Both the position numbers and the translations under genes were made by a program. DNA of 64,000 nt from Candidatus Puniceispirillum sp. (GTDB lineage Bacteria; Pseudomonadota; Alphaproteobacteria; Caedimonadales; UBA1908). This document shows positions 1 to 37,515 of this stretch, one piece after another. The stretch is from contig PNJU01000011.1 of the NCBI GenBank assembly GCA_013822015.1, positions 33,765 through 97,764 of the forward strand, given 5' to 3'. The notes below the pieces were generated by a model. It did no database searches and was not told the origin of the DNA. It saw only the letters and a program-made list of their open reading frames with translations. The stretch's first letter is position 1. Each line of letters starts with the position of its first letter.

Positions 1-559
1 CTGTGGCAAACGCGCCTGCTGGAATTGTGTTCTCAACGGTTTTGTGATTTGTACCGCCGGTTCCCTTTTGGTTCTTTAGGTTGAGCTTGATGACGCGCGG
101 TGTGCGCGTATTCGAGAAAGACAAATTATAAGAGCTGTTTGATTGACCTTGATCAGCACCTATTTCATCTTTAGTTCCATTTTCTTGTGTTTTATCCAGT
201 TGGATCTGGAGTTCATTAATTTGCCCTTGGAGTGCATCGATCACCTGTTTTGTTTCAGAATCAGCCTCCGAAAACTTTGTTTGTGCAAGCGTGGAGTAAG
301 CTTGCTCAAGCTCACGAAGGCGCTTGTTAGTCTCTTTTGCTTCACTTTCCATACGATCAATCCAAACGTCCCGCGGATCAATGCGCTTTGAGGCTGTCAA
401 AATCGTTTCTTTTTCCTCTGATTTTGCGGAGGAAGCCTTTGAGGGAGAAAACAGAATCCAACAAATGGCACAGATCACAAGCATGACAGCACCCCAAACA
501 AATCCGAAAACAATCCATTGAGCTTTCTTTGGGTCTAAGGATGTAGAAAAAAGACTCAT
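1..559 (-). CDS. traB: F-type conjugation protein TraB, N-terminal part (cut by window edge)
   Basis: TraB is the VirB10/TrbI-like protein that spans the periplasm in F-type conjugative type IV secretion and links the inner-membrane complex to the outer-membrane core. The frame is open from an ATG at 559 to the window edge, about 186 residues. Seen: a single N-terminal membrane segment (about residues 15-35), a Glu/Gln-rich stretch typical of the TraB coiled coil (about 65-125), then a basic linker and the sequence TVENTIPAGAFAT, which matches the conserved start of the TraB beta-barrel domain. Its start overlaps the traK stop by 4 bp (ATGA), as expected in a translationally coupled tra operon. 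The C-terminus lies outside the window. Confidence 0.88.
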   Translation of the reverse strand, partial: MSLFSTSLDPKKAQWIVFGFVWGAVMLVICAICWILFSPSKASSAKSEEKETILTASKRIDPRDVWIDRMESEAKETNKRLRELEQAYSTLAQTKFSEADSETKQVIDALQGQINELQIQLDKTQENGTKDEIGADQGQSNSSYNLSFSNTRTPRVIKLNLKNQKGTGGTNHKTVENTIPAGAFAT

Positions 560-1275
560 AGGGATTCTCCTTTTGCAGAAACTGCGTATAAGAAGGTGAA
601 ACCACCCGCTTTGAGAGTTTGTGTTGTGAGACCCAGGGCAACATGACCTATGTTCGCAAAGTGTGCATGACGCAGATCGGTGTCTTCTTCACTTCTGTTC
701 TCGACGCGAAAGAGAGTCGCCTGGTATTGAGCTCCTATTAAGGATGCAAGGGGAGTCATGCAAAGACCTGGACTTAGGTCACATTTCGTTGAAGCGTAGA
801 GATAGGAAAATTCATAGCCCTGTGGAGCCTTTCCTCCTCCTAGGCTCTCCATTAACGCCGTCAGCTCTTCTTCGTAAGAAGTGAGTCCGGGATTGTCTAC
901 CTCCTCTTTGGCATTGACTGGACCAACAGGTTCAAGAATGACCGCATCTGTGCCTTGGGAGGAAACAACAAGCTGCACATCCTGGGTAAGCCCTTTTTCT
1001 GTAATAAAGGTGATGCGCACACCGCTCTTATCTAGCTCCCCTTGCGGTGTAAGAAAAACTTGTCCAAGGACCTCATCTAGTTCGACTTGAAGTCTCTCAT
1101 CTGATCCAAAAATCTGTGCAATCCTATCTCCCTTCACCGCAATACGCGTGTGCTCACGAGACGATAGTGTGACAGTTACGTTTCCTTGGTCTTCAATTTT
1201 GATTTTGGTGGCTGCCATGAGCGACGACGCACAAGTAAGAAATGCCAGCATGAAAACGTAGGAGGGTTTAGGCAT
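556..1275 (-). CDS. traK: F-type conjugation outer-membrane complex protein TraK
   Basis: TraK is the secretin/VirB9-like outer-membrane-complex component of F-type transfer systems and works with TraB and TraV. The predicted protein is about 239 aa, with a signal peptide (hydrophobic segment, then LMA-ATK) and a beta-rich N-terminal domain beginning with KIEDQGNVTVTLSSREHTRI, typical of the family. I prefer the ATG at 1275 to the one 15 bp upstream, because a GAGGAG ribosome site precedes it and the upstream ATG has none. It overlaps the traE stop by 8 bp and the traB start by 4 bp. The order traL-traE-traK-traB is the conserved F order, which strengthens the call. Confidence 0.9.
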   Translation of the reverse strand: MPKPSYVFMLAFLTCASSLMAATKIKIEDQGNVTVTLSSREHTRIAVKGDRIAQIFGSDERLQVELDEVLGQVFLTPQGELDKSGVRITFITEKGLTQDVQLVVSSQGTDAVILEPVGPVNAKEEVDNPGLTSYEEELTALMESLGGGKAPQGYEFSYLYASTKCDLSPGLCMTPLASLIGAQYQATLFRVENRSEEDTDLRHAHFANIGHVALGLTTQTLKAGGFTFLYAVSAKGESL

Positions 1276-1831
1276 TTTTCTTCTCCTCAAGGGTTATGAA
1301 CTCTAAAATCATCAAACGTCCTTTCTCATACCCAAGCCGGATGCTGTATTTTTCCTCTTTTTGAAAAACAACTTTTGTGCCCACAAAACCCATCAACTCA
1401 CCTGTGATTTCGGCACTCATTTTTTCTGGATTTGCATTAATGTGTTTTGGGTGGAATGCCGTTGAAAGACCATCTTTTGTGATTTTGCGTGCTTCTTGAG
1501 CAAGCGTTGCCTTCATGGTCCCGTAAGAACCAGGCGCAGTGTAACGCAGCAACAAATCATGGTTATAGGGGAGGCTTTTGGGCGTTGCATTGAGAAGCAT
1601 CTGAGCAAAAAAAACGGCAATCTCCTCAAGGTAAGTTTTTGAGACACGACCCTTTTCCACCCAAAGAGGACCATGAATTTCTGGCGGAACAAGAACGATT
1701 CGCTCGTTTTTTGAAAAGACACCCACACTCAAAATCAGGTTCGTGCAAAGAAGAGCCCCAACGGTAATCAAAAGGATCTTTCGCTGATACAACACGTGAG
1801 AAAGGCGTGCGTTAAAAAGGGTGCTTTTCAT
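1268..1831 (-). CDS. traE: F-type conjugation protein TraE
   Basis: TraE is a VirB8-like, single-pass inner-membrane protein of F-type mating-pair formation. The protein is about 187 aa with one N-terminal membrane helix (about residues 18-38) and a periplasmic domain containing the family-like ERIVLVPPEI segment after the helix. The chosen start is the ATG at 1831, which overlaps the traL stop (ATGA) and follows a GGGAG-like site. A GTG 9 bp upstream is also in frame but less likely. Together with traL, traK and traB this forms a compact operon transcribed leftward. Confidence 0.9.
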   Translation of the reverse strand: MKSTLFNARLSHVLYQRKILLITVGALLCTNLILSVGVFSKNERIVLVPPEIHGPLWVEKGRVSKTYLEEIAVFFAQMLLNATPKSLPYNHDLLLRYTAPGSYGTMKATLAQEARKITKDGLSTAFHPKHINANPEKMSAEITGELMGFVGTKVVFQKEEKYSIRLGYEKGRLMILEFITLEEKKNA

Positions 1832-2121
1832 GATACCCACTCCCGGACGAAGGAAGGAGGCGTGGACTTAAGGCGTGTTTTATTATGAGGAAGGTACCAA
1901 TAAGCAAGGCAACTTAAAGCGCCACCCCCCGTAAGCTTTTGTAACTTACGTACGCCGTAACACAAAACACCTCCCAAGATGAAGCCTGTTGAGCCCATGT
2001 CCAGAAGAACTCCTGCAAAAATAGGAACCAAAAGGAAGGCCGCTTCTGTTTTCGTGAAAAACAAGAACCGGGCTGGACTGTCCAGTCGATGAAGCAAAAG
2101 GTGGCGGCCGCGTTCACTCAT
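1828..2121 (-). CDS. traL: F-type conjugation protein TraL
   Basis: TraL is a small VirB3-like inner-membrane protein needed for F-type pilus assembly. The protein is 97 aa, the usual length. It has the typical pattern of a short polar N-terminus (RLDSPARFLFFTKTEA), two closely spaced hydrophobic helices (about 25-60) and a basic tail. The ribosome site is GAGG about 8 bp before the ATG. It lies between the SSB-pilin frame and traE, exactly where F-type operons place traL after the pilin gene. Confidence 0.9.
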   Translation of the reverse strand: MSERGRHLLLHRLDSPARFLFFTKTEAAFLLVPIFAGVLLDMGSTGFILGGVLCYGVRKLQKLTGGGALSCLAYWYLPHNKTRLKSTPPSFVREWVS

Positions 2122-2131
2122 GGCTCATGCC

Positions 2132-2794
2132 TCACATGCACAGGGTGAATTTTGTATTGATCCAGTCTTGGCCAAGAATACCAGCAGCAAGCATGCCCCC
2201 TGAAATTCCTGCCTGCGGATAGTTTCCCTTGGCAGCTCCTATGAAACACGTGCTGCCTAACGCCACAATTGCTGCGAGCTTGAGAAACCCGCCCGTCAGT
2301 GTATTCTCAAGCTGTGTCCACACATCTCCAAAAAGCATGTTTTCTTGTGCAGCGTAAAGATCAATGCTAAGAAACGCGCTCACGGCTAAGAAAAGAGCAG
2401 CATATCCAACGACGGATGTGGCCTTCTTGCTCCAGCATGAGCTCGTCACGTCAGTTTTATCCATCAAATAAAGAGCGCCTTTTTTGGGCAAAATTACCAC
2501 TTCAGAAATCACGATGTCGTTGGCGTCTTCTTGTTTGGCACGTGCATACTGAAGGCTTCCTTCTACAAGCACACGCGATCCCTTCTTGAGGTGTTCTTTC
2601 ACAGTTTTGAGAATATCATCATTGAGTACACGGACCCTGTGCCACGCAGTTACCATGTTCTTTCTACCAACTTGATCTGTCCATGACTCACTTGTGCCTA
2701 ATGACAGGAGACCATATGGCACACCATCCGCGTCACTACGTAGTTGTGGGTCATCGTTTAGCTCTCCAACGAGCGTAACCTTATTGAGTTGCAT
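2132..2794 (-). CDS. Fused frame: single-stranded DNA-binding protein plus F-type pilin-like protein
   Basis: One uninterrupted 220-codon frame joins two unrelated parts. Residues 1-102 are an SSB OB-fold (MQLNKVTLVGELNDDPQLR, then FMTAW-like and GSRVLVEGSL motifs). Residues 111-220 look like a conjugative prepilin: a basic start, a long hydrophobic leader ending LYA-A (cleavage after about 148), then a mature part of about 70 aa with two membrane helices (about 168-188 and 194-208). The position just upstream of traL is where F-type operons carry the pilin gene traA. An internal ATG at 2464 (residue 111), with a weak AAGGCG site about 11 bp upstream, could give a separate pilin. Whether the product is a true fusion, a lost stop codon, or two overlapping translation products cannot be decided here. 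SSB identity is firm; pilin identity is inferred from topology and position. Confidence 0.75.
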   Translation of the reverse strand: MQLNKVTLVGELNDDPQLRSDADGVPYGLLSLGTSESWTDQVGRKNMVTAWHRVRVLNDDILKTVKEHLKKGSRVLVEGSLQYARAKQEDANDIVISEVVILPKKGALYLMDKTDVTSSCWSKKATSVVGYAALFLAVSAFLSIDLYAAQENMLFGDVWTQLENTLTGGFLKLAAIVALGSTCFIGAAKGNYPQAGISGGMLAAGILGQDWINTKFTLCM

Positions 2795-4274
2795 GGGAAT
2801 TATTCCTTTCGCATTGCGTGGTGTTTTGTGTGTGCAAGAGAGGAGACGTGTTCTCGTTTGTTCCCAAACAAGTACACGCCTCTCTTTTTGAGCAAAGTGT
2901 GCATCCTATCGATGCGGGTTTGGTAAATGGAGTAAATCCAAACCCCTTCCGAGTATTAGACCCGGAAGCTTGTAAAAGCACAGAATTCCTCTGTGCCTCA
3001 TCCGCTGTGATAACCTTGATTTTGTAAATATTGATGAAGTCTGGATACCCTTCCCGCAGAGACCAGAGCATATGCCTACTTTTTGAGAATCGTCTTACTT
3101 GGTCTTCCGTGGGGCATACCAAGAAATCCTCATTTTCTACTTTGCGGTAAAAGGCATCTCTAAGATTTGCGCGGTATTCTTCGATCCCATGTTTGTTAAT
3201 AAAATGTTCACACACGGCAGCCCATTGTGGGTCCTCGATTAAAGAGAGGGTCTCTTTAATTTCAAGATCTCGTGCACGCTGTTTATTAGCCAGTTGCGAG
3301 GCCTTTGTTTCACATTGAAGTGCTTTCGAGCGCGCATCGTCATATCCCGTACGTGCCCCTATTGCGTAAGCACTCCCTTCCATGATGCGAATAAGGTTTT
3401 TTTCTGAAATGACCCAGTCAAGGCCCGCTCGGAACTTGGTGTTCTTTTCTTCCCCCATCAAAAAGTAAGAGCGGGTTACGTTGTTGCATACACTGCTCCA
3501 AGCTTCCATGTCCTGATTGAGTGGCCCGTAAAACGCTTCCTTAAGTGCCTGAGCTCTTGAAGGGTGAAGGGAAAGATGTCTTTTATCCAAAACAAATTCA
3601 GAAAAAATCACACACATTCTGCGCGCAAAATCCCATGAGGAATCTGTCAGATTTTCCGAAAGAGAGGGAAAGGGTGTGTTTTTATTAATATTCTCAGGAG
3701 TTGTATTCTTAGTTAGAGAAGTATCCAATTTGGCCACATCGATCTGGTCATATTGACCGCATGGGCGATTGATTTGGAAGTCGTGCGTATTGTTTGTCTT
3801 TTTTGAGTTAACATCATGTTTTTCATCAATTTCCATAATGGCCTTGTGGGTTTCTGCCAAAATCCTTTGCCCATGCGTCTGGTCATATTGACCGCACGGA
3901 TATGGTCGGTTCTGGGTTTTTTGAGAAGAGCGAGATAATCCATGAAGCTCCGACAGAACCTCGTAATCGATGGTGTAAAAGATGACCTTTTGAAAACCCT
4001 TTTTTGTGTGAGTCAGAATGAGGCCTCGTTCTTTGAGGGTCTTAATAGTCCGTCTAACGGTTTTTTCTGCCCAGAATGGAAACTGAGCCATCCATTGTGC
4101 AATGGTATTGTGCGTCCAGTATCGACCATTGAAGTGTTTTTCAGGAGCCTGAAATTTGGGTGAAAGCCAATAGTGAATCTGCTGCAAAACGATCGCCTCG
4201 TTGAGTCCAATTTTTAACGCAAGAGAGGGTAGGACTTGCAAGGGAGATTCATTAATGAGCAGTGGGCTCGTCAT
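2781..4274 (-). CDS. Winged-helix replication-like protein (phage/plasmid RepO/DnaD-style N-terminus)
   Basis: The N-terminus (INESPLQVLPSLALKIGLNE, then QQIHYWL and a WTHNTIAQWMAQFPFW...TVRRTIKTLKERGL helix-turn-helix) resembles the winged-helix domain found at the start of many phage and plasmid replication proteins. The rest of the roughly 497 aa is mostly helical and charged. Near the C-terminus is a four-Cys stretch (CTLCSKREACTC) that could bind a metal. I chose the ATG at 4274, with AGGA 8 bp upstream; a GTG at 4298 overlapping the preceding stop is possible. The end overlaps the SSB start by 14 bp. It probably acts in element replication or maintenance. The exact function is not established. 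Confidence 0.6.
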   Translation of the reverse strand: MTSPLLINESPLQVLPSLALKIGLNEAIVLQQIHYWLSPKFQAPEKHFNGRYWTHNTIAQWMAQFPFWAEKTVRRTIKTLKERGLILTHTKKGFQKVIFYTIDYEVLSELHGLSRSSQKTQNRPYPCGQYDQTHGQRILAETHKAIMEIDEKHDVNSKKTNNTHDFQINRPCGQYDQIDVAKLDTSLTKNTTPENINKNTPFPSLSENLTDSSWDFARRMCVIFSEFVLDKRHLSLHPSRAQALKEAFYGPLNQDMEAWSSVCNNVTRSYFLMGEEKNTKFRAGLDWVISEKNLIRIMEGSAYAIGARTGYDDARSKALQCETKASQLANKQRARDLEIKETLSLIEDPQWAAVCEHFINKHGIEEYRANLRDAFYRKVENEDFLVCPTEDQVRRFSKSRHMLWSLREGYPDFINIYKIKVITADEAQRNSVLLQASGSNTRKGFGFTPFTKPASIGCTLCSKREACTCLGTNENTSPLLHTQNTTQCERNNSHATQ

Positions 4275-4294
4275 GACTTTGTTCCTAATCCCTG

Positions 4295-4528
4295 TCACCT
4301 GACATAGATTGTGTTTTGGGCAGTATTTTCATCTTCAAACTGCTCAACATCAGAGAGACGATAAACAACCCGTCCACCTAACTTGATGAACTTTGGCCCG
4401 CGTCCCAAGTGCCTCCACCTGTTCAGGGTTGTTGGTTTGATATTCCACCGTTCAGCAAGTCCGCTCACATTAAACATGACGCCTGGGCTTTGCTTGGCCG
4501 GCTGGGCAGTAATTAACTTTTTTGGCAT
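4295..4528 (-). CDS. Small AlpA/excisionase-type helix-turn-helix protein
   Basis: This is a 77-aa DNA-binding protein of the HTH_17/AlpA class. The core FNVSGLAERWNIKPTTLNRW followed by RHLGRGPKFIKLGGRVVYR and a DVEQF end is the classic winged MerR-like fold of small excisionases and element regulators. The ATG at 4528 is preceded by an ideal AAGGAG site 7 bp away, so the longer frame extending to 4615 is not used. It is the first gene of the leftward tra operon and probably controls excision or activates the operon. Confidence 0.85.
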   Translation of the reverse strand: MPKKLITAQPAKQSPGVMFNVSGLAERWNIKPTTLNRWRHLGRGPKFIKLGGRVVYRLSDVEQFEDENTAQNTIYVR

Positions 4529-4798
4529 CGATGGCTCCTTGAACTCAGCAATATGATTAATTTTGCACGACACATTTTTAAATGTCAATTCTATTTTAGA
4601 AATATGGCGCCACACTAATATGTTGTTTTTTAATAGTTTTTTGAGAGCATCCTCTGTGAAAGTAAATTTTTAACAATTTTGTGCAATCTATATAAAAATG
4701 TGCACTCTAATTTATAGAAAGTGTTTTGCCATCTTTGATAAAATAAGTATATATTAAATTAGAAATTTTTTGACCATGACATTATATATGAAGAAAAG
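4529..4798. promoter_or_regulatory. Divergent control region between the tra operon and the XRE regulators
   Basis: This 270-bp, very AT-rich gap separates the leftward tra operon from the rightward regulator pair, so it must hold both promoters. Seen: two TGTGCA-containing repeats about 20 bp apart (near 4679 and 4703), and a related TTTGCACGACAC sequence near 4560 close to the tra start. These could be operator half-sites for the adjacent XRE proteins. I cannot assign -35/-10 boxes with confidence. Confidence 0.45.
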
Positions 4799-5734
4799 AT
4801 GAGTATTCTGACTGATAAAATTAATGATTTTCTTAGATCTAACAACCTAACGGTTGCTGAGGCAGAGAGAAAAGCTGGAGTCAAACCAAACTCTATTCAT
4901 AATATTTTAAAAGGGCGCATCAAAACACCACATCGAAAGAACCTCCTTTTGTTGGCGGAAATGCTCTCGTGCAATCCACAGGATCTGATATCTATAAGTA
5001 AAAGTTCAAGGAAGAGAATATTATCCAGGCAGGAAAAAGAAAATCTTTGCACAAGTGTCGCGTATCTTCTCAGTAAACTGAACATTTCTGCTCCTCGCCT
5101 TGCTTTTCTTTGTGGCTTTTCTCCTAGTTCACTTTCAAAGATCCTATCTCCGAAAATTGTAGAGACAAATCCAAGTCGGAAAGTTTTGTCAGGGCTTGCA
5201 GCACTTGTATCATGTGCTGAAGAGGATCTACTCATGGCGCGCACTGATAAATTTAAGCTCCCCAGGATAGAGGATGATGAGGCAGACGACATATCCCCCT
5301 TACGTATGGCCATTTCAACTTATTTGGAACAAAACAAAATATCCATACCAACACTAGAACGCAAAGCTCGCATCGAAACAAACGCGCTGCGAGCTATTCT
5401 TCAAGGGACGTCAAAAAGGCCCATGGCTGATACCGTTGCAGCAATTGCTAATACGCTCGGTGTTACTGTTGAAAATTTGTTGGAAGGAAAATTAGAGCAG
5501 AAACAAAATACAACTAAAGCCTCATCGATCATATTGCTAACCCATCCTGAATTGTTTCGGGAGACACTTGCTGTGATTTTAGAAATAGCAAAAGAAAAGA
5601 AGGTCACTTTTACGCTTCATCAGATCTGTGGGATGCTTACTGAGGCTTATTTATACGCAGTCAAAACAGATCCCATAGCAGTGCAAAAACCATTCTTAGA
5701 ATGGGTAGTTGAAAAGGTCAGGACTAAGACATGA
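4799..5734 (+). CDS. Regulator with three tandem XRE-type HTH repeats
   Basis: The protein is 311 aa. Three related 65-residue HTH units are visible at about 5-68, 84-147 and 168-230. Units 1 and 3 share the pattern ...LE/AERKAxxxxNxxxxILxGxxKxP..., while unit 2 is more divergent (LAFLCGFSPSSLSKIL). A C-terminal helical domain (about 245-308, with FTLHQICGMLTEAYLYAVK and FLEWVVEKV) also occurs in the next gene and, more weakly, in the regulator at 25818. Single HTH units are normal for XRE proteins; three in one chain are unusual. It is coupled to the next gene by a 4-bp ATGA overlap and probably binds the divergent region upstream. Its target and ligand are unknown. Confidence 0.8.
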   Translation: MSILTDKINDFLRSNNLTVAEAERKAGVKPNSIHNILKGRIKTPHRKNLLLLAEMLSCNPQDLISISKSSRKRILSRQEKENLCTSVAYLLSKLNISAPRLAFLCGFSPSSLSKILSPKIVETNPSRKVLSGLAALVSCAEEDLLMARTDKFKLPRIEDDEADDISPLRMAISTYLEQNKISIPTLERKARIETNALRAILQGTSKRPMADTVAAIANTLGVTVENLLEGKLEQKQNTTKASSIILLTHPELFRETLAVILEIAKEKKVTFTLHQICGMLTEAYLYAVKTDPIAVQKPFLEWVVEKVRTKT

Positions 5735-6210
5735 AGCAGCAACCGCCATCGCTTGATTTTTTACGATCCAAGATTCAGGCTTACCTCGCAGGCCACGCAA
5801 TAAACCTCAAAGCTTTTGAGCGCATGACTGGTTTGAAGTATAGATCTCTCAGCAATATTATGTATGGGCAAGCCAATCGAGTCAGTATTTTTACGTACGC
5901 AAAAATTGCCAAGGTCATGGGTTGCACAGTGGAGGAGCTTATGGGCAAGCAAGATAGGGTGCCCCCAAAGGATCCCTTAAAAGTCAGTGTAAAAGACTCT
6001 CCTCCCATCAGGGATGGAAAGTTGCTTCTGGGACATCTTGACCTCATTCTAAGGATATGCAAAGACCACGGAGTGCTTTTGAGCCCTAGTCAAGTTTGCC
6101 GCATGCTTGAGCAAAGCTATCTTTTTACCGTCAAAAATGAGGACAAGAGTCCAGATCGTACATTCATTCTTTGGCTTCTCGAGCGAGTAAAGGTTTATGG
6201 TGATATTTAA
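5731..6210 (+). CDS. XRE-family regulator with shared C-terminal domain
   Basis: The protein is 159 aa with one HTH unit (about 8-72: INLKAFERMTGLKYRSLSNI, then KIAKVMGCTVEELMG). Its C-terminal domain (about 95-155: SQVCRMLEQSYLFTVKNE, then FILWLLERVK) is clearly related to that of the preceding three-HTH protein. The start overlaps the upstream stop (ATGA), so the two are co-translated and may form heteromers. The stop codon overlaps that of the facing gene at 6207, so the two transcription units converge with no spacer. Confidence 0.82.
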   Translation: MKQQPPSLDFLRSKIQAYLAGHAINLKAFERMTGLKYRSLSNIMYGQANRVSIFTYAKIAKVMGCTVEELMGKQDRVPPKDPLKVSVKDSPPIRDGKLLLGHLDLILRICKDHGVLLSPSQVCRMLEQSYLFTVKNEDKSPDRTFILWLLERVKVYGDI

Positions 6211-6875
6211 GCAAGCGTAATCTCAACATGATTCCAATTCGGCTCTGAATTTCCAAAATATATAGACCAACCAAGAGTGTCGGCAAATTTGCGCAGGTAT
6301 TCTCTTGAAGGCAGGGCGCCATAGCGTTTTTTTTGATGGCTTCTTAGTCCGATCAAAGAATCACTTACGTCTAGACCATTATCTAAAATGCGGACCACAC
6401 ATTGATTCGTAATTTGACACGTTATTGGCTCGATAATGATCGTGCCCCCAGGACTTACACGCTCTTTAATAAGTTCGATCAAAACACAGAAAAACACTTG
6501 AAAAACAAGAGGGTCTATGTATGGTGCAAGTTTGTTCTCTGGGGAGAGAATAACGAGATTTACACCGTTTTCCAGAAAGAAATTGTGGTAAGATTTCGTT
6601 ATTTTTTTGATTACATGAAATAAATTGACTTGTGTCACTGCATCAGACAGAGGTATGCCACAGGAGAGTCTTTTAAGAATCAGAAAGACTTCCTCAAAAC
6701 ACACATCATTGCCCTGTGATGATAATTTTTCCGTGCCCCGTGTCTCAGATAACTTTATCAAGATACAGCAAAGGTGTGCCATTTTCTGGTAACGTTCGAT
6801 GAGAGTTGTAAGAAATATCGGATCAAGCATATGCGATTGTATATGCTGAGACGCTGTATGTGTAATAAAAGCCAT
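6207..6875 (-). CDS. Degenerate histidine-kinase-like ATPase (soluble)
   Basis: The protein is 222 aa with no membrane segment. The second half resembles a GHKL/HATPase domain: a region in the N-box position (VFQVFFCVLIELIKERV) lacks the usual conserved Asn residues, a G1-like VRILDNGLDVSDS keeps D-N-G, and the C-terminal ...LRKFADTLGWSIYF ends like a kinase core. No clear phospho-accepting His box is visible in the N-terminal half. The same pattern occurs in the longer membrane protein at 26271-27806, which aligns over about 150 residues. It lies 2 bp downstream of the LuxI-like gene and so is in its operon. It may be an ATP- or ligand-binding signalling partner rather than an active kinase. 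Confidence 0.6.
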   Translation of the reverse strand: MAFITHTASQHIQSHMLDPIFLTTLIERYQKMAHLCCILIKLSETRGTEKLSSQGNDVCFEEVFLILKRLSCGIPLSDAVTQVNLFHVIKKITKSYHNFFLENGVNLVILSPENKLAPYIDPLVFQVFFCVLIELIKERVSPGGTIIIEPITCQITNQCVVRILDNGLDVSDSLIGLRSHQKKRYGALPSREYLRKFADTLGWSIYFGNSEPNWNHVEITLA

Positions 6876-6877
6876 TT

Positions 6878-7402
6878 CTAATGCCTGTGGGGATTTTGGA
6901 ACAGCGCGATGCAGAGATTATCTTCGAGTGCGAGCTTGGGCTTGAAGCGCATTTCACCGAAAAGTTGAAGTTTTTCGATCTCTTCAGGGGGGGCAAGAAA
7001 AAGAAGTGTCCCAATTTGAAAGCGTACGCAGGCTGTGATAACGGCCTCACGAAATCCCTCGTAGCATTTGAAATGAAGTCTGTGAACTGCCTCTTGCCCA
7101 TCCTGAATTGTGTGTGAATCCTTAAGATGGAAAACCATCAGGCTACATTCCCATATACCTTGCGCCTCAAACCCTCTCACATAGCTACCAAGGGTGTCAC
7201 TTGTGAGATTCTTCGTGGTCATGGGGTTAAGGCGAGCGCCCATTCTAAGGCCCGTATGCGGGTCTTGGTAAGTAATGTAAATTGAATGATCGTGATCATA
7301 AACTGAGTTGTTTGTAGGAAGTGGGTGGGCCTTTTCTGCAAAAATGTGATTAATGTCGCATTCGAAAATAGCGCGATTTTTTTGGTCGATAATTTTAAAC
7401 AT
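6878..7402 (-). CDS. LuxI-like autoinducer-synthase-family protein (GNAT fold)
   Basis: The protein is 174 aa. The pattern follows acyl-homoserine-lactone synthases: an acidic YDHDHS turn, a strand IYITYQD, the conserved GARLNPM (equivalent to GxxRLLPT), and GIWECSLMVF where LuxI proteins have WE(I/L)SRF. The invariant Arg of the SRF motif is missing (Leu here), so the substrate may differ from classical AHL synthesis. The ATG at 7402 has AGGGA 8 bp upstream; the frame further upstream is not likely used. It forms an operon with the kinase-like gene. A second relative lies at 24926-25480, also with an XRE regulator and a kinase-like protein nearby. Enzyme activity is not proven. Confidence 0.65.
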   Translation of the reverse strand: MFKIIDQKNRAIFECDINHIFAEKAHPLPTNNSVYDHDHSIYITYQDPHTGLRMGARLNPMTTKNLTSDTLGSYVRGFEAQGIWECSLMVFHLKDSHTIQDGQEAVHRLHFKCYEGFREAVITACVRFQIGTLLFLAPPEEIEKLQLFGEMRFKPKLALEDNLCIALFQNPHRH

Positions 7403-7542
7403 TGTGTTTTCCCTGTTTTTTAATGTCGCTTTTTTGACCACTTTTGTCTTAAAAAACAAGAAAAAAGATATTTGGGGGGGGTAGCTTCTAATTTAAGCTT
7501 TATTATATCTATATGATTTGAAATTCTTTTTTGCTTTAGAGT

Positions 7543-7950
7543 CTACAATCTCATTGCATCTAAAGTGTCGCTCAGACCGTCTAGGGTATCACTCGCTGAA
7601 ATAACGTTATGTATGCCTGCTTCTTTTAAACGTGCTGAAATTTCATCTGTCTCAGATTGACTGACGCGACTGGAAAGCAAACAGGTTACCGTAGCATGTT
7701 TGCACAAAGGCTTTAATATATCTTCTATCATTGTAATGGATTGATCATTTGTGCGGTAAATTAATGGACTCATTGCATATAAGAAAGTTGAGGCCCCCTT
7801 ATTGATACACTTGAGGACATCTTCTGAATTCGACACGATACCCAGATTTTGTACAGTTCTATTTTTTTCGCTGAGAATTAAATCTAAGAGAAATAGCTGC
7901 ATGGCTGTTTCAGGGGAATTAATAGAAAAAATTACATATTTAGCGGGCAT
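7543..7950 (-). CDS. Unknown small alpha/beta protein, receiver-like
   Basis: The protein is 135 aa with alternating strands and helices (YVIFSINS, TVQNLGIVSN, HATVTCLLSSR, then a helix and NVISAS). The layout resembles a response-regulator receiver fold, but I see no acidic phosphorylation pocket, so it would be a pseudo-receiver if related. It lies between the LysR regulator (45 bp upstream) and the LuxI-like gene (140 bp downstream), all leftward. A role in the same signalling module is a guess from position only. Confidence 0.5.
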   Translation of the reverse strand: MPAKYVIFSINSPETAMQLFLLDLILSEKNRTVQNLGIVSNSEDVLKCINKGASTFLYAMSPLIYRTNDQSITMIEDILKPLCKHATVTCLLSSRVSQSETDEISARLKEAGIHNVISASDTLDGLSDTLDAMRL

Positions 7951-7994: not shown

Positions 7995-8885
7995 TCACAA
8001 TGCTGAAAAAGCGTCTTTATAAAAAGAAATAAGTTTTTTATTTTTTTCATAGCCTGCAATGTTTTCTTCACAAATGATGAAATAGGTGTTAGTTGGCCCT
8101 GCTAGCTCAGGTAAAACAGGCACAAGATCATATTTTTTTAGATCTGGATGTTGTGGCGGTACGGATATAATACCTACGTCTTTTGAGCAAATGTAACACC
8201 TTTTAAGATGAGCATCTATGTCCATATATGCCTTCCTCGGGTTATTTTTTGGCCTACCAATATGTAGGTGCCAATTTAAATCATCGGGCCTATTGCCGTA
8301 AATTGAATATGCAACAAGCTGGTGTTTATCTAGATCTTCTGGAGACTCCGGTTTTCCATGTTTTTCTAAATAACCCTTGGACGCGTATAGGCGCAAAGTA
8401 AGCGATATAAGAGGTTCTTGGACATATCCAGTAAGGTTTTCTATATAAGGGCTTATGAGGATGTCAGTGTTTAATTTTTCAGCAAGTGATAGACCATCGG
8501 AAGAGAGAAGAGTCATGCGCGTATGTGGGTTAGCGATGATGAATTTGTCGATAAATGTTTCAATATATCTTGTTAAGATGCTTGAGGGAGCCAGTGTTTT
8601 GATGTGATCCATGTTATGCCCTCTACGGTTATTTTGCCACTCGGTTTCAGACCGAAGCATATTATAAACCTTTTCCGCTGTCAATAAAAGATGTTCCCCT
8701 TCTATTGTTAAGGACAAACCGGATTCAAGCCTATTAAACAATTTGATACCAAGTTCTTTTTCTAGAGAACGAATTGAGGCGCTGACGGCAGGGGAGGTTT
8801 TATTTTGCAGTTCAGCTGCCCTGTTGATTGAGCCCGCACAAGCGGTTAAATAGAAAATTCGTAATTTATCCCAACTAAAACGCAT
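7995..8885 (-). CDS. LysR-family transcriptional regulator
   Basis: The protein is 296 aa, the usual length. The N-terminal winged HTH (FYLTACAGSINRAAELQ...SPAVSASIRSLEKELGIKLF) is typical of the family, followed by a linker helix and a periplasmic-binding-protein-like effector domain. The effector domain is shorter on obvious motifs, so no ligand can be suggested. The gene is AT-rich like its neighbours in the element. A target could be the downstream unknown gene or the LuxI-like operon. No divergent partner lies upstream: the next gene is the PLD protein, also leftward, about 150 bp away. Confidence 0.9.
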   Translation of the reverse strand: MRFSWDKLRIFYLTACAGSINRAAELQNKTSPAVSASIRSLEKELGIKLFNRLESGLSLTIEGEHLLLTAEKVYNMLRSETEWQNNRRGHNMDHIKTLAPSSILTRYIETFIDKFIIANPHTRMTLLSSDGLSLAEKLNTDILISPYIENLTGYVQEPLISLTLRLYASKGYLEKHGKPESPEDLDKHQLVAYSIYGNRPDDLNWHLHIGRPKNNPRKAYMDIDAHLKRCYICSKDVGIISVPPQHPDLKKYDLVPVLPELAGPTNTYFIICEENIAGYEKNKKLISFYKDAFSAL

Positions 8886-9036: not shown

Positions 9037-9615
9037 TTATTTTGAGCCTTGTGTTGCTCTCATGCGCTCCTCCCAGTTTTTTTTGTACTGTTTAGCAAGC
9101 TCAGGGCTCTCAATGAAGAGGATGTTCTCGGCATTACGAAACTGAGCGGCGTTGGTCCAGTTGTAAGATCCTGTCACAACGGTTTTGCCATCGATGATCA
9201 TGACCTTGTTGTGGGAAATGGCAACGGTCTTATCAAAGGTGATGGACACACCTTGGGTTGCAAGGAGGGAAAGTTGTGTTCTTTCCCTCTCGCGTTGTCC
9301 ATCATCGGCAATGACGTGAACCTTGATGCCACGCCTTTGTGCATTGATGAGAGCCTCGGCTATAGGCCTAGCGGTGAACGAGTAGGACATGACCAAGATC
9401 TCGCTTTTAGCGGCATCAATGGCACGCACAATTTTATTTTGGCATTGACCCCCTGGCGTAAAGCAGGCCTCCATGCGCACGCCACTTTTCTCGTCAACGA
9501 TGATAGGAAAAGCAAGCTGGCGGATCGCTTCATAGACGAGCAGTGTAATGACCGCCGCAAGAATGGAGGAAATCGTCCATTTTGGGGACAAAAGAGAAAC
9601 GCGGCGCCTGCTCAT
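9037..9615 (-). CDS. Phospholipase D-superfamily nuclease-like protein
   Basis: The protein is 192 aa with a single HKD motif (HNKVMIIDG, H135/K137/D142, followed by GSYNWTNAAQFRNAEN), matching the small PLD-family endonucleases related to plasmid-borne Nuc and the PLD proteins of intracellular alphaproteobacteria. A hydrophobic helix at about 15-36 indicates a membrane anchor or uncleaved signal, so the catalytic part probably lies outside the cytoplasm. It is translationally coupled to the Fic gene (ATGA overlap). The N-terminal 19 residues are nearly repeated in the gene at 10998-11291, evidence of local duplication. Confidence 0.88.
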   Translation of the reverse strand: MSRRRVSLLSPKWTISSILAAVITLLVYEAIRQLAFPIIVDEKSGVRMEACFTPGGQCQNKIVRAIDAAKSEILVMSYSFTARPIAEALINAQRRGIKVHVIADDGQRERERTQLSLLATQGVSITFDKTVAISHNKVMIIDGKTVVTGSYNWTNAAQFRNAENILFIESPELAKQYKKNWEERMRATQGSK

Positions 9616-10703
9616 GGGTTTGTCTTCCTTGCGAGTCTATATCTTGTGGCTTTGCCTTCCCCAAGGCGTTCTAAACGTTTCATATGGACAAGTTTTTTGA
9701 TGATTTCCTCAACAGTGCGCTGCGGAAAACCGAGTGCTTGGGTTGCATCTTTGCGCGCAAACTCTGTGCCTCTCTCATTCGCCCATTCCCATAGTGCAAG
9801 CTGCTTTTGGGACAACAAGTACTCTATGGTATCTTGTTGCATAAGCCTCATGAAGCGAGCGCTTTGTTCTTTCATAGCGCGTAGGAAGAAAAGGAGCCAA
9901 GCTGAGATGTCTTCGTTTTCTGTTTTCCAAGTTTGTTGAGTTTTATTAAGAGCAAGGTAGTAGTCGATCTTTCTTTCTTCAATGATTTGCTCATGGGAGG
10001 TTACTTTTGTAAAAAGATACCCCTGTTGCAGCAACATCAGATTGGTTATAAGGCGGCTTGTTCTGCCATTTCCATCTTGAAAAGGATGTATGGCAAGATA
10101 TTCAAAAATGAAATTCCCAATGAGTATGAGAGGATGTTTTGCGTGTTGTGCACTTGCCCAGTGGTACCAATCAACGAGCTCTTGCATCTCTTTTGTAACA
10201 AGATACGGCGGCGTTGGTTCAAATATAACGCCTACAACATTGCCGGAAGGATCTTTGGCTTCTACGCGATTTGAGCCACACTTGTATTTTCCGCGATGCC
10301 CAGCATCCTTCTCGCTCACGCGTAACATCTCTTGATGAAGGTGCAAAATGGAGGATTGAGAAAGGGGTATGCCTTCATAACTTTTGAAAATGAATTCGAG
10401 GCACTCGAGATAACCTACAATTTCCTGTTCGTCTCGTGTCTTAAACTTTTTTACCCGCAGGCCCTTGTATAAGTCTTCAACCTCATCGTCCGTTAATCTG
10501 TTTCCCTCAATACGGTTCGAGGCCCCAGTGGATGTGACAATGACTGATTTTGTGATGCGCTCCAGTGTTTGCGGCAACAAATGTGTTGTCACGATCCAAC
10601 TGTTTTTAACGGCATCAATTTCCGCGATAAGGCTGTAGAACTCTTCTATGATATTTGATGAGAGACTGAGCCTTGTTTGCAGGCGAAATGTATCCCATGC
10701 CAT
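9612..10703 (-). CDS. Class II Fic-domain protein (probable AMP transferase)
   Basis: The protein is 363 aa. The catalytic motif HPFQDGNGR (206-214) is complete, giving an AMP-transferase or related NMP-transferase. An inhibitory helix motif S-N-R-I-E-G (62-67) lies in the N-terminal part of the same chain, so it is a self-inhibited class II Fic and needs no separate antitoxin. The C-terminal part looks like a winged helix (RKDATQALGFPQRTVEEIIK), common in this subfamily. The ATG at 10703 is chosen over a TTG 18 bp upstream. Just upstream are inverted and direct repeats that may bind the protein for autoregulation. Targets are unknown. Confidence 0.92.
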   Translation of the reverse strand: MAWDTFRLQTRLSLSSNIIEEFYSLIAEIDAVKNSWIVTTHLLPQTLERITKSVIVTSTGASNRIEGNRLTDDEVEDLYKGLRVKKFKTRDEQEIVGYLECLEFIFKSYEGIPLSQSSILHLHQEMLRVSEKDAGHRGKYKCGSNRVEAKDPSGNVVGVIFEPTPPYLVTKEMQELVDWYHWASAQHAKHPLILIGNFIFEYLAIHPFQDGNGRTSRLITNLMLLQQGYLFTKVTSHEQIIEERKIDYYLALNKTQQTWKTENEDISAWLLFFLRAMKEQSARFMRLMQQDTIEYLLSQKQLALWEWANERGTEFARKDATQALGFPQRTVEEIIKKLVHMKRLERLGEGKATRYRLARKTNP

Positions 10704-10726
10704 GTTCTTTTTACCTTGCAAGCTCT

Positions 10727-10997: not shown

Positions 10998-11291
10998 TTA
11001 GATATTCTTATGACTTCTCTCAAGGTGGATGAGGTGTTCCAGTTCTTCTTCAAGTTCTTCTTTCATCTTTGTCAGCGCGTGGGGAGGCATCTCGCCCAAA
11101 TCATTATCGTCATGTGTGGTGGCCTTCATGAGTTCTTCCTCCTTTGACAAATGAGTCATGGCTTTTCTTATGGCGTCGGCAATTTTCCAAAGAGCAATAG
11201 CACACTTTTTTGCTGCTCTGCCAAAGTAGAGCACAAAAACGGAGGAAATCGTCCGTTTTGGGGGCAAAAGAGAAACACGACGCCTTGTCAT
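10998..11291 (-). CDS. Small protein with PLD-derived N-terminus (chimeric)
   Basis: The protein is 97 aa. The first 17 residues (MTRRRVSLLPPKRTISS) almost match the start of the PLD protein at 9037-9615, and the DNA around the start is similar too. The rest is unrelated: a helical segment and an acidic, Glu-rich tail (MKEELEEELEHLIHLE). It appears to arise from recombination between a duplicated PLD 5' end and another sequence. No function can be assigned; it may not be expressed. Confidence 0.45.
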   Translation of the reverse strand: MTRRRVSLLPPKRTISSVFVLYFGRAAKKCAIALWKIADAIRKAMTHLSKEEELMKATTHDDNDLGEMPPHALTKMKEELEEELEHLIHLERSHKNI

Positions 11292-25817: not shown

Positions 25818-26249
25818 ATGTCTGCAAATTTAGCCTCTAATATCAAGCGCTTACTCGATGAAAGTCGACTTTCTGTTATGGGCCTTGAGAAAAAAGCGGG
25901 ATTAAAAACAAATGCCGTAAGGAATATCCTGAGTGGTCACACAAAAAAGCCTAGTGCTGAAACGGTGCTTGCCATCTCCAGGGCATTGGGATGCAGCCTA
26001 AGCCAAATCATCGAGGATGACCGAGAGCACCAAAGCGCCCTCGAGGAAATGGGATTTGAGAACGTTCCGCTTTTTAAAAGCACCGTTTTGTATTTTCTAG
26101 ATTTTTATGAAAAAAACGCGCTCATTGCGACAAATACCGTTTTCATCGAGTCTATTCATCACATTTACAAGTATCTGTCGGATAACAACAAAGGCCAGTT
26201 CGACGAACGCTTCGCAGACTGGTTCCTCAGCCGTCAGCTCCCTCTCTAG
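25818..26249 (+). CDS. XRE-family regulator of the second signalling module
   Basis: The protein is 143 aa. The HTH unit (about 5-68: LSVMGLEKKAGLKTNAVRNILSGHTKKPSAETV) is closely similar to repeats 1 and 3 of the three-HTH regulator at 4799 and to the protein at 5731. A short helical C-terminal domain ends FADWFLSRQLPL, corresponding to FLEWVVEKV / FILWLLERV in the relatives. It is divergent from the LuxI-like gene and convergent with the kinase-like gene. Confidence 0.82.
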   Translation: MSANLASNIKRLLDESRLSVMGLEKKAGLKTNAVRNILSGHTKKPSAETVLAISRALGCSLSQIIEDDREHQSALEEMGFENVPLFKSTVLYFLDFYEKNALIATNTVFIESIHHIYKYLSDNNKGQFDERFADWFLSRQLPL

Positions 26250-26270: not shown

Positions 26271-27806
26271 CTACGCGAAAAGGGGCACAACATTTCCTTG
26301 GTGGGAAGCCGCCTCTTGCTGGCCTGCGCCCCCATCATGAAACGTCAGGATATGCTGCACGTCCCGCCTCTCCCATGAAATGCCAAGCTTCTCTCTGAGC
26401 GTATCGACGCTTCTTTGGGACAAGCGTGAGGCACCAACCACGATGCCTTTCTCTAAAAAGACCACATGGCCACTGACATGCTCACCCTGCACCTCAACAG
26501 ATAAGGACGCATCTTTTCCTAGTGTACGCGCCACGTGAACACTGGCACCCTTGAAACAGCTCCCAAGAACATCCTTGAAAAAACAGAGCATGAAAATCTG
26601 CATTGCTTTTTCATCTCCGGAAATCGAAAAGTCACAAAGAGATGCATCCAGAGAAAGTGACGCCTTGGCCCGCAACAAATCTGGCTCAAGGACCTCTTTG
26701 ATTTGGGCAAGCAGTGACCCCATATTGATGGGGGCAACCTGGTTTGGCTCTACCTCACCAGCCTGGAGCTGTTTTGCTGTGTACATGAGCGCCTCAAGGA
26801 GCTCCCCATGATCAAGCACGCCCGTCCCGTGCTGGTCGCTGCTCAGCAGTGTGGCAAGGGCAAGCAGCTTATCAATGTGTTGCGCTTTGCGCTCCTCAAT
26901 AAAGGCGGAAAGCCCCTTTTCAAAGGCAGCCTTGCGTCTTTGCATGTTTTTTTGGGCTTGGCCGTCACCCAGCTCTTGCGTAAGGCGTGCACATTTTTCC
27001 TGTACATGGGAAAGTTCCTGGGTCACGGACTCAAGCTGATCTTGTTTAAAGCGCCTTGCACGCAGCAAAGCACTCCCATAAGCAATAGAAAACAAGGTAA
27101 ACAAGCCTAAGATACATGAAAAGAAAACCGCACTTTGGGGGAGGCATTTTCTCAAAAACGCATGCCAAAAGGTCGCACCTGTTCTTGAATAGTCATAGTC
27201 TTGGGTAGGCCCGTGCAAGGGCCCACCCTTTCGCGGGTAAAGCTCGCCCACCCCCAAAAAGTGAGCCAGATTCTCAAGGGGCACATCTATAACAAATGAC
27301 GCGTCTTTGAGACGCAAAGGAGCCGTCATCCTCAAGGCGTCTTTTTGATGAGCCAGCTCCCCATCCTTCGGTGCAATGTGCTCAGAAAAAGAAAAATCTC
27401 TTGGCAGAAAGGGCGATGATTGACTTAAGGAAAAGAGATTTGGATGGGCGTCATGGGCCTCAATCCCCTTGGCCATAAATTCAACATGGTGACCAAGCTG
27501 TTGAAGGCGAGTGCTCCACAAGCGCTCTACACGCCCCTCTTCTGCTACCCGCGCCTTATGTGCACTTTGCGCATGCATCACAAGGCTTGCCCCCATGCAA
27601 ATGACAAAAGCAGCAGTGACAACGCCCAAAAGCGTTTTGAAACGGAAAGGTATAACGTACTGAAAAAGAACCCGTAACCCTCGCAGTTGCGCGCGCCCAT
27701 GATGAAGCCATGTCGCGCTCGAGGTCGTTTTTGAAAATTGAGGGCGATTGCAGTTCTTCTCATAAGAGATGATTTCCTCAGCACTCCCCTTTACTACCGG
27801 CTTCAT
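26271..27806 (-). CDS. Membrane histidine-kinase-like protein with degenerate ATPase domain
   Basis: The protein is about 511 aa. Topology: a membrane helix at about 58-78, a periplasmic region of about 145 aa, a second helix at about 224-248, a coiled coil (about 250-310), then a cytoplasmic part resembling a kinase core. No clear H-box is seen, and the ATP-binding part lacks the conserved Asn pair (GDEKAMQIFMLCFFKDVLG in that position) and the DxGxG box. This cytoplasmic half aligns with the soluble protein at 6207-6875. It may be a receptor that signals without phosphorylation, with the periplasmic region sensing a small molecule. Its start is uncertain: 27839 is also in frame, while the ATG at 27806 has GGGA upstream. 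It faces the XRE gene with a 21-bp gap. Confidence 0.62.
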   Translation of the reverse strand: MKPVVKGSAEEIISYEKNCNRPQFSKTTSSATWLHHGRAQLRGLRVLFQYVIPFRFKTLLGVVTAAFVICMGASLVMHAQSAHKARVAEEGRVERLWSTRLQQLGHHVEFMAKGIEAHDAHPNLFSLSQSSPFLPRDFSFSEHIAPKDGELAHQKDALRMTAPLRLKDASFVIDVPLENLAHFLGVGELYPRKGGPLHGPTQDYDYSRTGATFWHAFLRKCLPQSAVFFSCILGLFTLFSIAYGSALLRARRFKQDQLESVTQELSHVQEKCARLTQELGDGQAQKNMQRRKAAFEKGLSAFIEERKAQHIDKLLALATLLSSDQHGTGVLDHGELLEALMYTAKQLQAGEVEPNQVAPINMGSLLAQIKEVLEPDLLRAKASLSLDASLCDFSISGDEKAMQIFMLCFFKDVLGSCFKGASVHVARTLGKDASLSVEVQGEHVSGHVVFLEKGIVVGASRLSQRSVDTLREKLGISWERRDVQHILTFHDGGAGQQEAASHQGNVVPLFA

Positions 27807-28088
27807 TATGAATTCCCAAAGGCCTGTTCGTATTTTCATCTGTATACCAAGTATGAGACCCCCAAGTCAATAAAAGGGACAAAAATTGGCACCACCTAAT
27901 ATTTGCCAAAAAATTTAGTAAATTAGGCTACTTGCTATCTTGGAGGGAATAACGTCAGGCGCGGTGAACGTCTGACGTGGTCAGGGAAAACGTATACCCC
28001 AAGAATGCCCCCCTGAGTTTTATGTGTTATTATAGAGAAATAATAACGTTTAAAAAATACACATGTACATTTTACAGGGGAAAGGCAC

Positions 28089-36846: not shown

Positions 36847-37515
36847 CTACTCGTCCTTAAGGACAACGACGTCTTGCCAGAAATCAATCATCTTCCGCGT
36901 AGACTCCACAAGCTCTCTCATCTCATAGGACTTGCACATATAGGCGCATGCGCCGCTGGCGTACGCTTTTTTGAGATCTGCGTAGTTTAAGCTGCCTGTC
37001 CAAATGATGACGGGAATATGGAAAAAGTTCTTGCTGCTTTTAAGGTAACGCAGGAACTGAAAACCGTTTTGGTTCGGCAGATTTATGTCGAGAAGTATCA
37101 AGTCAGGCAAGCGCCCTGGCGGATTTCTCAAGTACTTTTCGGCCAGGTCTGGCGCGTTCAAAACATGGACATCCACCTTGTCATTCACATCCTTGATGCA
37201 CCCCACCAGGATCTCAGCGTCCGTGACATCGTCCTCGACCAACATAATACTCAAGGGCCTTTTAAGGTCCTGTGCCGTAATGTGTTGGATACGGACCGTT
37301 TCCTCATCGACTTGGTCAAAGAAATGCTCGATGGGAACGCTATAAATTTTGGACAGCTTGTACAGGGTTTCCGAGCTGATCTTTGTATCACCTTGCTCAT
37401 ACTTGAAGAGTGTCTGATGGGACACGTCCATCTGCTTAGAAGCCTCCTCAAGGGTCATGTTTCTCTTCTTACGAAAATGCTTCAGCCTTTTGCCGATTTG
37501 CTCGTTGATGTTCAT
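36847..37515 (-). CDS. Hybrid regulator: N-terminal XRE HTH plus C-terminal receiver
   Basis: The protein is 222 aa. Residues 5-67 are an XRE HTH (MTLEEASKQMDVSHQTLFKY). Residues 88-210 are a response-regulator receiver with all key residues: E94/D95/D96, phospho-acceptor D143 (LLDINLP), T173 (WTGS) and K195 (MCKSYE). Usual regulators put the receiver first and use OmpR or LuxR outputs; this order and DNA-binding type are uncommon. It lies 9 bp after the histidine kinase gene, forming a two-component pair. Confidence 0.9.
   Translation of the reverse strand: MNINEQIGKRLKHFRKKRNMTLEEASKQMDVSHQTLFKYEQGDTKISSETLYKLSKIYSVPIEHFFDQVDEETVRIQHITAQDLKRPLSIMLVEDDVTDAEILVGCIKDVNDKVDVHVLNAPDLAEKYLRNPPGRLPDLILLDINLPNQNGFQFLRYLKSSKNFFHIPVIIWTGSLNYADLKKAYASGACAYMCKSYEMRELVESTRKMIDFWQDVVVLKDE

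Follow-up and report, generated by a model that had tools for sequence, protein, structure and literature searches.

Transfer of mobile elements is under LuxI/LuxR control in rhizobia and in Agrobacterium, where TraI and TraR serve the Ti plasmid. Among elements with F-type transfer genes, the Rickettsiales amplified genetic element (RAGE) carries histidine kinases and TPR proteins as cargo, some of the TPR proteins with Sec signals (PMC10732058). Here we describe a 64,000-nucleotide stretch (hereafter the window) of contig 11 of a 1.98 Mb Candidatus Puniceispirillum sp. genome (labelled G000), in which two XRE regulators, a LuxI-like protein and a kinase-like protein are encoded next to the transfer operon of an F-type conjugative element. 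This module probably controls the element. It resembles TraI/TraR in that a LuxI-superfamily gene is positioned to control conjugation genes, but the receptor there is of the LuxR type, whereas here there are XRE proteins, an apparent pseudo-kinase, STAND NTPases (in relatives) and a non-canonical LuxI-like protein. With RAGE it shares F-type transfer genes and kinase and TPR cargo (PMC10732058); it differs in that the terms XRE and quorum have no occurrence in the main text of that paper, where LuxI was not searched for. The arrangement of LuxI-like, XRE and pseudo-kinase genes on an element was not found in titles or abstracts of the open-licence literature searched.

The genes lie where the initial annotation of this DNA had placed them: two plus-strand XRE genes converge tail to tail on a minus-strand unit of two genes, LuxI-like and kinase-like, which are separated by 2 bases. 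XRE-A (4799..5734; 311 aa) has three helix-turn-helix (HTH) stretches (HTH_26, E 4.8e-22) and a C-terminal domain common to the XRE family, and XRE-B (5731..6210; 159 aa) has one HTH_26 (E 8.9e-9) with a C-terminal domain as in XRE-A. XRE-B overlaps by 4 bases, at the tails, with the gene for the kinase-like protein (6207..6875, minus strand; 222 aa), a short, soluble member of an XRE-linked pseudo-histidine-kinase family. The LuxI-like protein (6878..7402, minus strand; 174 aa), with a LuxI/GNAT fold, was taken to start at the ATG at 7402, the point from which it aligns with its relatives, and not at the TTG at 7459 given in the list of open reading frames.

Upstream of XRE-A, an AT-rich region of 183 bp (4616..4798), whose imperfect inverted repeats are of doubtful weight, leads to a divergent, minus-strand xis-rep-ssb-tra operon. 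First in this operon is an HTH_17 or excisionase-like gene (4295..4615; HTH_17 E 1.7e-7, phrog_66 excisionase E 7.2e-9), followed by the genes for a replication-initiation or DnaD-like protein of the element (2781..4298; phrog_6493 E 3.9e-31), an SSB-like protein (2132..2794; PF00436 E 1.1e-18), TraL (1828..2121; PF07178 E 2.1e-20), TraE (1268..1840; PF05309 E 2.4e-49) and TraK (556..1290; PF06586 E 3.9e-12, PF23536 E 2.1e-9). Past the left edge of the window come TrbI, TraC, a signal peptidase, TraU and TrbC, and a plus-strand relaxase/helicase gene with MobA/MobL, AAA and Toprim domains lies at 17947..22767. With F-type transfer genes and a relaxase, this is an F-type conjugative element (its conjugative nature had been read correctly from the start), and XRE-A occupies the position expected of a transfer repressor.

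This position recurs. A profile search of 386 sampled Alphaproteobacteria genomes (threshold E<=1e-12) found the XRE family in 16, all of 1.2-2.6 Mb, one of which (G143) matches with the HTH half only. Thirty XRE regions were fetched around matches outside G000, G004 and G005, and neighbours were scored within 6 kb. The members from which the search profiles had been built, those of G000, family f3 and others at order level, do not include any of the 30 loci. Kinase genes were present in 15 loci, STAND genes in 16 and one or the other in 21; transfer, replication or relaxase genes were present in 15 and LuxI-like genes in 6. (These six LuxI-like genes also went into a second LuxI profile, but all six are found without it.) In 12 of the 30 (L126, L129, L130, L131, L133, L135, L136, L138, L141, L143, L145 and L150), transfer or replication genes are divergent on the 5' side of the XRE gene. 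Since several regions stop at contig ends, a missing gene there says little. A single SSB match was all that came from twelve control stretches (about 157 kb) taken from related genomes.

LuxI-like genes, detected with a combined profile at the same threshold, occur in 6 of the 386 genomes, 5 of which also carry the XRE family; as the genomes are related to one another, the cases of overlap do not count as independent events. Weaker matches in a further four genomes (E 1.5e-9 to 3.6e-6) may be ordinary LuxI. In five loci from two related genomes the LuxI-like gene is itself the head of a transfer operon. It precedes rep in L129, L198 and L202, with one base common to its stop and the rep start in L129 and with a copy cut at its start in L202; after rep come SSB in L129, SSB, TraL and TraE in L202, and SSB, TraL, TraE and TraK in L198. 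In L131 and L201 the gene before it is of the HTH_17 type, and no rep was scored. The initial annotation had named co-occurrence of the three families in other genomes as a check and had suggested quorum-type control of element transfer as a purpose; the families do co-occur, and these loci and the divergent operon in the window support a link to transfer. The contexts of 32 LuxI-like genes were counted by hand, with some regions covered to 1.5 kb only: five are operon heads, six are divergent from XRE and six from LysR genes, one is that of module 1 (the module described above), two lie behind a TenA-like gene with LysR nearby, and one (L197) is divergent from a gene for a GerE-NB-ARC-TPR protein. 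LuxI-like genes are thus often, but not always, near regulators and transfer genes.

Within G000 the XRE, kinase-like and LuxI-like families meet three times: in module 1, at 24.9-27.8 kb of the window (module 2) and on contig 14 (module 3, L031). In module 2, the second LuxI-like gene (24926..25480, minus strand) is divergent from XRE-C (25818..26249, plus strand), next to which lies a gene for a longer kinase-like protein (26271..27839, minus strand) with a hydrophobic N-terminal half and the C-terminal tail NVVPLFA. In module 3, a STAND/TPR gene stands between the XRE gene and a kinase-like gene split by a frameshift (L031:4010-5421); the neighbouring XRE, LuxI-like and STAND genes are open. 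Relatives show a partner absent from module 1, a STAND/TPR NTPase next to the kinase-like gene, and such a kinase-like and STAND pair is also found on contig 8, with no XRE match. An order-level profile search for LuxI-like proteins gave four members in G000 (window 6881-7402, window 24926-25480, contig 1 and contig 14). Two congeners have three each, G003 has two and G008 has one, and with the weak matches of three f3 genomes this makes 8 of 11 genomes. In the f3 genomes G004 and G009, convergent kinase-like and STAND genes lie at the XRE gene (L064, L065 and L067), and a TenA-like and a 390-aa gene are divergent from it; a contig end truncates another f3 locus (L063), and in the f3 genome G005 a kinase-like gene is the sole partner of XRE.

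Searched singly, the LuxI-like protein of the window has no AHL (N-acyl homoserine lactone) synthase match in Pfam or NCBIfam, and a weak DUF3929 match is the sole one for it and the kinase-like protein in these databases. A family profile of eleven members (A1) has five PDB matches at E<=10, all of them AHL synthases (best 3p2f, E 1.8e-5), and two relatives fall on either side of the PF00765 cut-off of 24 bits (L012 with 23.1 bits, E 6e-5; L193 with 25.8 bits). The LuxI-like fold had been put forward for checking by structure prediction: an AlphaFold model from six sequences (pLDDT 76.4, pTM 0.79, with low-confidence loops) finds its best solved-structure matches in BjaI, LasI, FeeM, EsaI and TofI, at a TM of about 0.5, that is, at fold level. 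By family profile and predicted fold, the protein belongs to the LuxI superfamily. FeeM is an N-acyl amino acid synthase (PDB 2g0b), a LuxI-fold acyltransferase that uses an amino acid; it has a comparable fold score (best E 1.1e-4), and with 9-11% identity its likeness to the window protein is one of fold only.

Conserved positions of LuxI include Arg25, Phe29, Trp35, Asp46, Asp49, Arg70, Glu101 and Arg104 (PMC5539150), and the pocket residues tabulated for LasI include Phe27, Trp33, Glu101, Ser103 and Arg104 (PMC9654057). Like the AHL synthases TofI, BjaI, LasI and EsaI (PF00765), with which it shares the fold and the family profile, the window copy has equivalents of Asp49, Arg70, Trp100, Glu101 and Ser103, and it keeps Pro73. 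It departs from them in that the Trp loop is deleted, the Arg of the SRF motif is a Leu, a Cys follows the Glu (WECS) and no LuxR receptor was found: the autoinducer-binding domain PF03472 has no match at E<=1 in G000. Trp35, Asp46 and Arg104 are absent, and Arg25 and Phe29 fall within a deleted or uncertain stretch. The SRF Arg is missing and no LuxR-type receptor was found, in agreement with the initial annotation, and of the GxxRLxP and WE-S core that it described, WECS and MGARLNP are present, the first Gly of the latter being replaced by Met. Across 30 aligned LuxI-like proteins, Trp35 is retained in 0, the SRF Arg (Arg104) in 1, Arg70 in 13, Glu101 in 17, Asp49 in 18 and Trp100 in 25, and 27 lack the N-terminal (Trp) loop, which makes the placement of Arg25 and Phe29 uncertain. 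These counts include three very diverged f3 proteins (L068-L070) without most LuxI residues, which hhalign aligns to the f1 group (96.7%); the f9 group aligns to f1 alone (98.8%) and fails to align directly to f3 (1.4%) or to the LuxI of G008 (3.1%). In three congener pairs of LuxI-like genes, pN/pS was 0.095/0.633, 0.126/0.808 and 0.044/0.452 (ratios about 0.10-0.16), and such low values indicate that the genes are maintained by purifying selection.

Two further sets of LuxI-related genes were seen. G008, of the same order, has a LuxI with all checked residues, TraI-like (E 3e-34, under the curated cut-off), adjoining a 212-aa LuxR-type protein (L038:6418-7714). On contig 5 of G000, tandem acyltransferase genes (L011:522-2079) are related to the PEP-CTERM/exosortase type (TIGR03694 E 1.5e-30, under cut-off) and also to LuxI (PF00765 E 7.7e-5, under cut-off). 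As for AHL synthesis itself, a linked third gene has been described (PMC10470506).

The kinase-like protein of the window has no Pfam match, is missed at E<=1 by a PF02518 search of the whole genome and has no meaningful match in a phmmer search of PDB; BLASTP between the window's two kinase-like proteins finds nothing (E 1.2), and a single-sequence structure model (pLDDT 42.5) is too poor for use. In an hmmsearch of 249 sequences, a profile of six XRE-linked kinase-like proteins finds it at E 2.4e-6, against 0.41 for the best of 200 shuffles; hhalign against the XRE-linked family profile aligns it (89.6%, E 1.9e-6), and a wider profile gives E 2.2e-5 (best of 30 shuffles E 0.042). A profile built on five canonical kinases only misses it. 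A relative (L066) has dCache_1 and HATPase_c matches just below cut-off. On these profile comparisons the protein is related to the histidine-kinase ATPase domain. It was rightly described as degenerate: the G1 motif DNG is kept, the N-box Asn and the G2 lid are absent, and a His in the H-box column falls in a gappy stretch and is not trusted. Five canonical kinases of G000 have the His, both Asn, DxG and GxGxG without exception. Among 19 XRE-linked kinase-like proteins (two of them 91% identical), the Mg-site (N-box) Asn is kept in 1, the G1 Asp in 17 and the GxGxG (G2) lid in 0, with a His in the H-box column, a gappy part of the alignment, in 2. They look like pseudo-kinases, some of which perhaps still bind nucleotide. 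Pseudo-histidine kinases and ChpT-like phosphotransferases likewise have a degenerate ATPase domain behind a helical part; the present family differs in that its alignment shows no conserved phospho-acceptor His and its genes pair with XRE genes. An NVVPLF-like tail ends 17 of the 19 proteins. This conserved C-terminus, of the type N-V/I-V/I-x-L/F (for example at window 26271-26295, minus strand), is possibly a docking peptide.

From the genes, their families, arrangement and recurrence, the losses of catalytic residues and the selection on the LuxI-like genes, all established above, we infer the following regulatory steps. The module would serve as the regulatory head of an integrative conjugative element of the F type. 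Judging by gene order, the XRE proteins would bind the divergent promoter and repress the excisionase-rep-ssb-tra operon; in other loci they may repress the LuxI-like gene instead. The LuxI-like protein would be an acyltransferase derived from LuxI that has given up S-adenosylmethionine as its amine acceptor, and the acylated metabolite that it makes would report on the cell or on element copies nearby; alternatively, the LuxI-like protein itself may be the sensor. The kinase-like protein, together with the STAND NTPase in relatives, would sense or relay the cue without phosphotransfer and contact the C-terminal domain of the XRE proteins, or a partner, and repression would be relieved. That the module is an element-borne excision and transfer switch with LuxI-derived, non-canonical signalling and an active acyltransferase is the interpretation toward which we lean, tentatively and at somewhat less than an even chance. 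In more general terms, this could be a conjugation switch built on former enzymes, with a LuxI fold moved away from AHL chemistry and a kinase-like protein moved away from phosphotransfer, both read by XRE repressors and STAND NTPases; here the LuxI fold would either make an acyl signal of a new kind or be a non-catalytic sensor or adaptor. The hosts, small-genome Alphaproteobacteria, are probably intracellular. We regard this more general formulation as possible, and hold it no less tentatively.

Several observations weigh against the interpretation with an active acyltransferase. Four of the 30 XRE loci (L128, L151, L152 and L154) are partnerless, and within the 21 with a kinase or STAND gene, the kinases of L153 are canonical and the match in L147 is weak (E 6e-4). 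Of the 15 loci with transfer or replication genes, four are scored on the HTH_17 gene alone (L131, L133, L135 and L136) and L127 on SSB alone. Four of the five operon-head loci come from a single genome, G250 (L129, L131, L201 and L202; L198 is from G330), and two of the five have the operon marked by the HTH_17 gene alone. Of the 32 LuxI-like genes, 11 are without regulator or transfer neighbours in the stretches covered, L006 among them having a divergent LysR gene 1.1 kb away. The congeners G001 and G002 have LuxI-like genes and only weak XRE matches, in the HTH part. The kinase-like protein of module 1 is without the tail motif, and no STAND gene adjoins it. No palindrome upstream of XRE-A beats shuffled sequence (60 of 60 shuffles reach the best perfect arm). 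Finally, Arg70 is lost in 17 of the 30 LuxI-like proteins and Glu101 in 13, including four aligned operon-head copies, which argues against one shared chemistry and leaves a non-catalytic role as open as an altered product.

These losses lead directly to the nearest alternative, that the LuxI-like protein is a pseudoenzyme which keeps the LuxI/GNAT fold, has an acyl carrier, a metabolite or a partner protein as its ligand and acts as an adaptor or anti-activator of the XRE and kinase-like pair; with a pseudo-kinase beside it, the transfer switch would be made of dead enzymes. The complete or near-complete loss of Trp35 and the SRF Arg, the patchy retention of Arg70 and Glu101, the kinase-like partners that are likewise without catalytic parts, and the fact that residues were lost despite purifying selection in three LuxI-like pairs are all consistent with it. 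The window copy and its genus-level relatives, however, keep the equivalents of Asp49, Arg70, Glu101 and Ser103, and the best fold matches include FeeM, an acyltransferase of LuxI fold that uses another acceptor. We consider this alternative somewhat unlikely, though one to be taken seriously. The opposite case, an ordinary AHL synthase for quorum sensing whose receptor has gone unrecognised, could draw on the homology to TofI, BjaI and LasI and on the Asp49, Arg70 and Glu101 kept in the window copy. It is made very improbable by the absent Trp35 loop and SRF Arg and by a genome with no PF03472 receptor. Moreover, G008 has a LuxI complete in the tabulated residues beside a LuxR-type domain, so it is the window family that has departed.

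Other explanations deny the module any control over transfer. STAND NTPases and XRE proteins are found in defence systems, and the module could be a cassette for defence or addiction that the element carries, with antitoxin-like XRE regulators and a STAND NTPase; XRE-A does match capH (E 2.1e-9), through its HTH. On the other hand, PADLOC gives no match at E<=0.01 for the window kinase-like and LuxI-like proteins, the L031 STAND protein or the kinase-like protein of L129, toxin genes not having been specifically searched; the L129 STAND protein matches at E 0.006 only, and the L198 protein matches at the level of its TPR. Given also the divergent transfer or replication genes at 12 of the 30 XRE loci, a defence role without transfer control seems improbable. 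Mobile elements shuffle their cargo, and some XRE loci are partnerless, as would be expected if the genes had come together by accident. Order and orientation nevertheless recur in several families and the control stretches are almost empty, and chance neighbourhood, already disfavoured, is the least credible of these explanations. If a LuxI-derived transfer switch of the kind we favour does exist, conjugation would be under LuxI-derived control with no LuxR and probably no AHLs, in bacteria of small genome size for which quorum sensing has hardly been considered; how RAGE-like elements time their movement would become testable, and the evolution of the LuxI fold would have a new outcome.

Candidate XRE operators come from other loci. 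In L142, L146 and L149 (family f9), a palindrome TTTGGTA-N7-TACCAAA lies between the XRE and LuxI-like genes, and its arm length is reached by 0, 17 and 1 of 60 mononucleotide shuffles, respectively. The downstream genes are of similar sizes in the three, which are probably one orthologous locus, and the L149 locus is near yidC and so perhaps chromosomal. A similar site, ATTTGGCA...TGCCAAAT, is present in the related loci L064 and L067 (reached by 4 and 2 of 60 shuffles), and it and the f9 palindrome are both candidates. Modules 2 and 3 share a different feature in the gap between XRE and LuxI-like genes, a hairpin-rich stretch (window 25530-25650 and L031:8380-8500; 87% identity, 52 bases) that forms a more stable fold than shuffled sequence does, on both strands (z about -5.1 and -3.0). 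It has no other match better than E 0.118 across 11 genomes, and against Rfam the window copy matches whalefall-1 only, with 15.4 bits against a cut-off of 37. It is possibly a structured leader RNA or a set of nested operator sites. A short shared reading frame in the same stretch was set aside; the hairpins may account for its conservation.

The genes around module 1 include, upstream of the LuxI-like gene, one for a 135-aa protein (7543..7950, minus strand), perhaps with a receiver-like fold as judged from a weak match to TIGR01501 (methylaspartate mutase S; E 3.7e-4 and 20 bits, the cut-off being 136), and then a LysR-type regulator (7995..8885, minus strand; HTH_1 E 2.9e-15). LysR genes adjoin six further LuxI-like genes too, divergent in those cases. 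Elsewhere, large proteins with a LuxR-type (GerE) HTH, NB-ARC and TPR (L198:980-4636, L197:7086-10814 and L144:1715-4975) adjoin LuxI-like or XRE genes and are possible receptors; the one in L198 is divergent from the HTH_17 gene. TenA-like genes occur near XRE genes or before diverged LuxI-like genes (L064:7321-9208, L068:49-4593 and L070:597-5065), the L068 locus also holding a SagB-like dehydrogenase gene, and these loci resemble a small biosynthetic cluster. In two families (L037:7595-8179 and L193:6009-6629), a LuxI-like gene adjoins a putative yajC-secD-secF cluster, named by eye, which is perhaps an old chromosomal site of the LuxI-like family. Within the window, an XRE HTH fused to a response-regulator receiver (36847-37515) adjoins a canonical histidine kinase (37525-39018), and a protein with RNase III and dsRBD domains, a signal-like start and an Ala-rich tail is encoded at 23066-24745. 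A Fic-domain protein is encoded at 9612-10721, and the open reading frames at 9037-9615 and 10998-11291 have a similar N-terminus (RRRVSLL-PK-TISS), which suggests a repeated piece of DNA.

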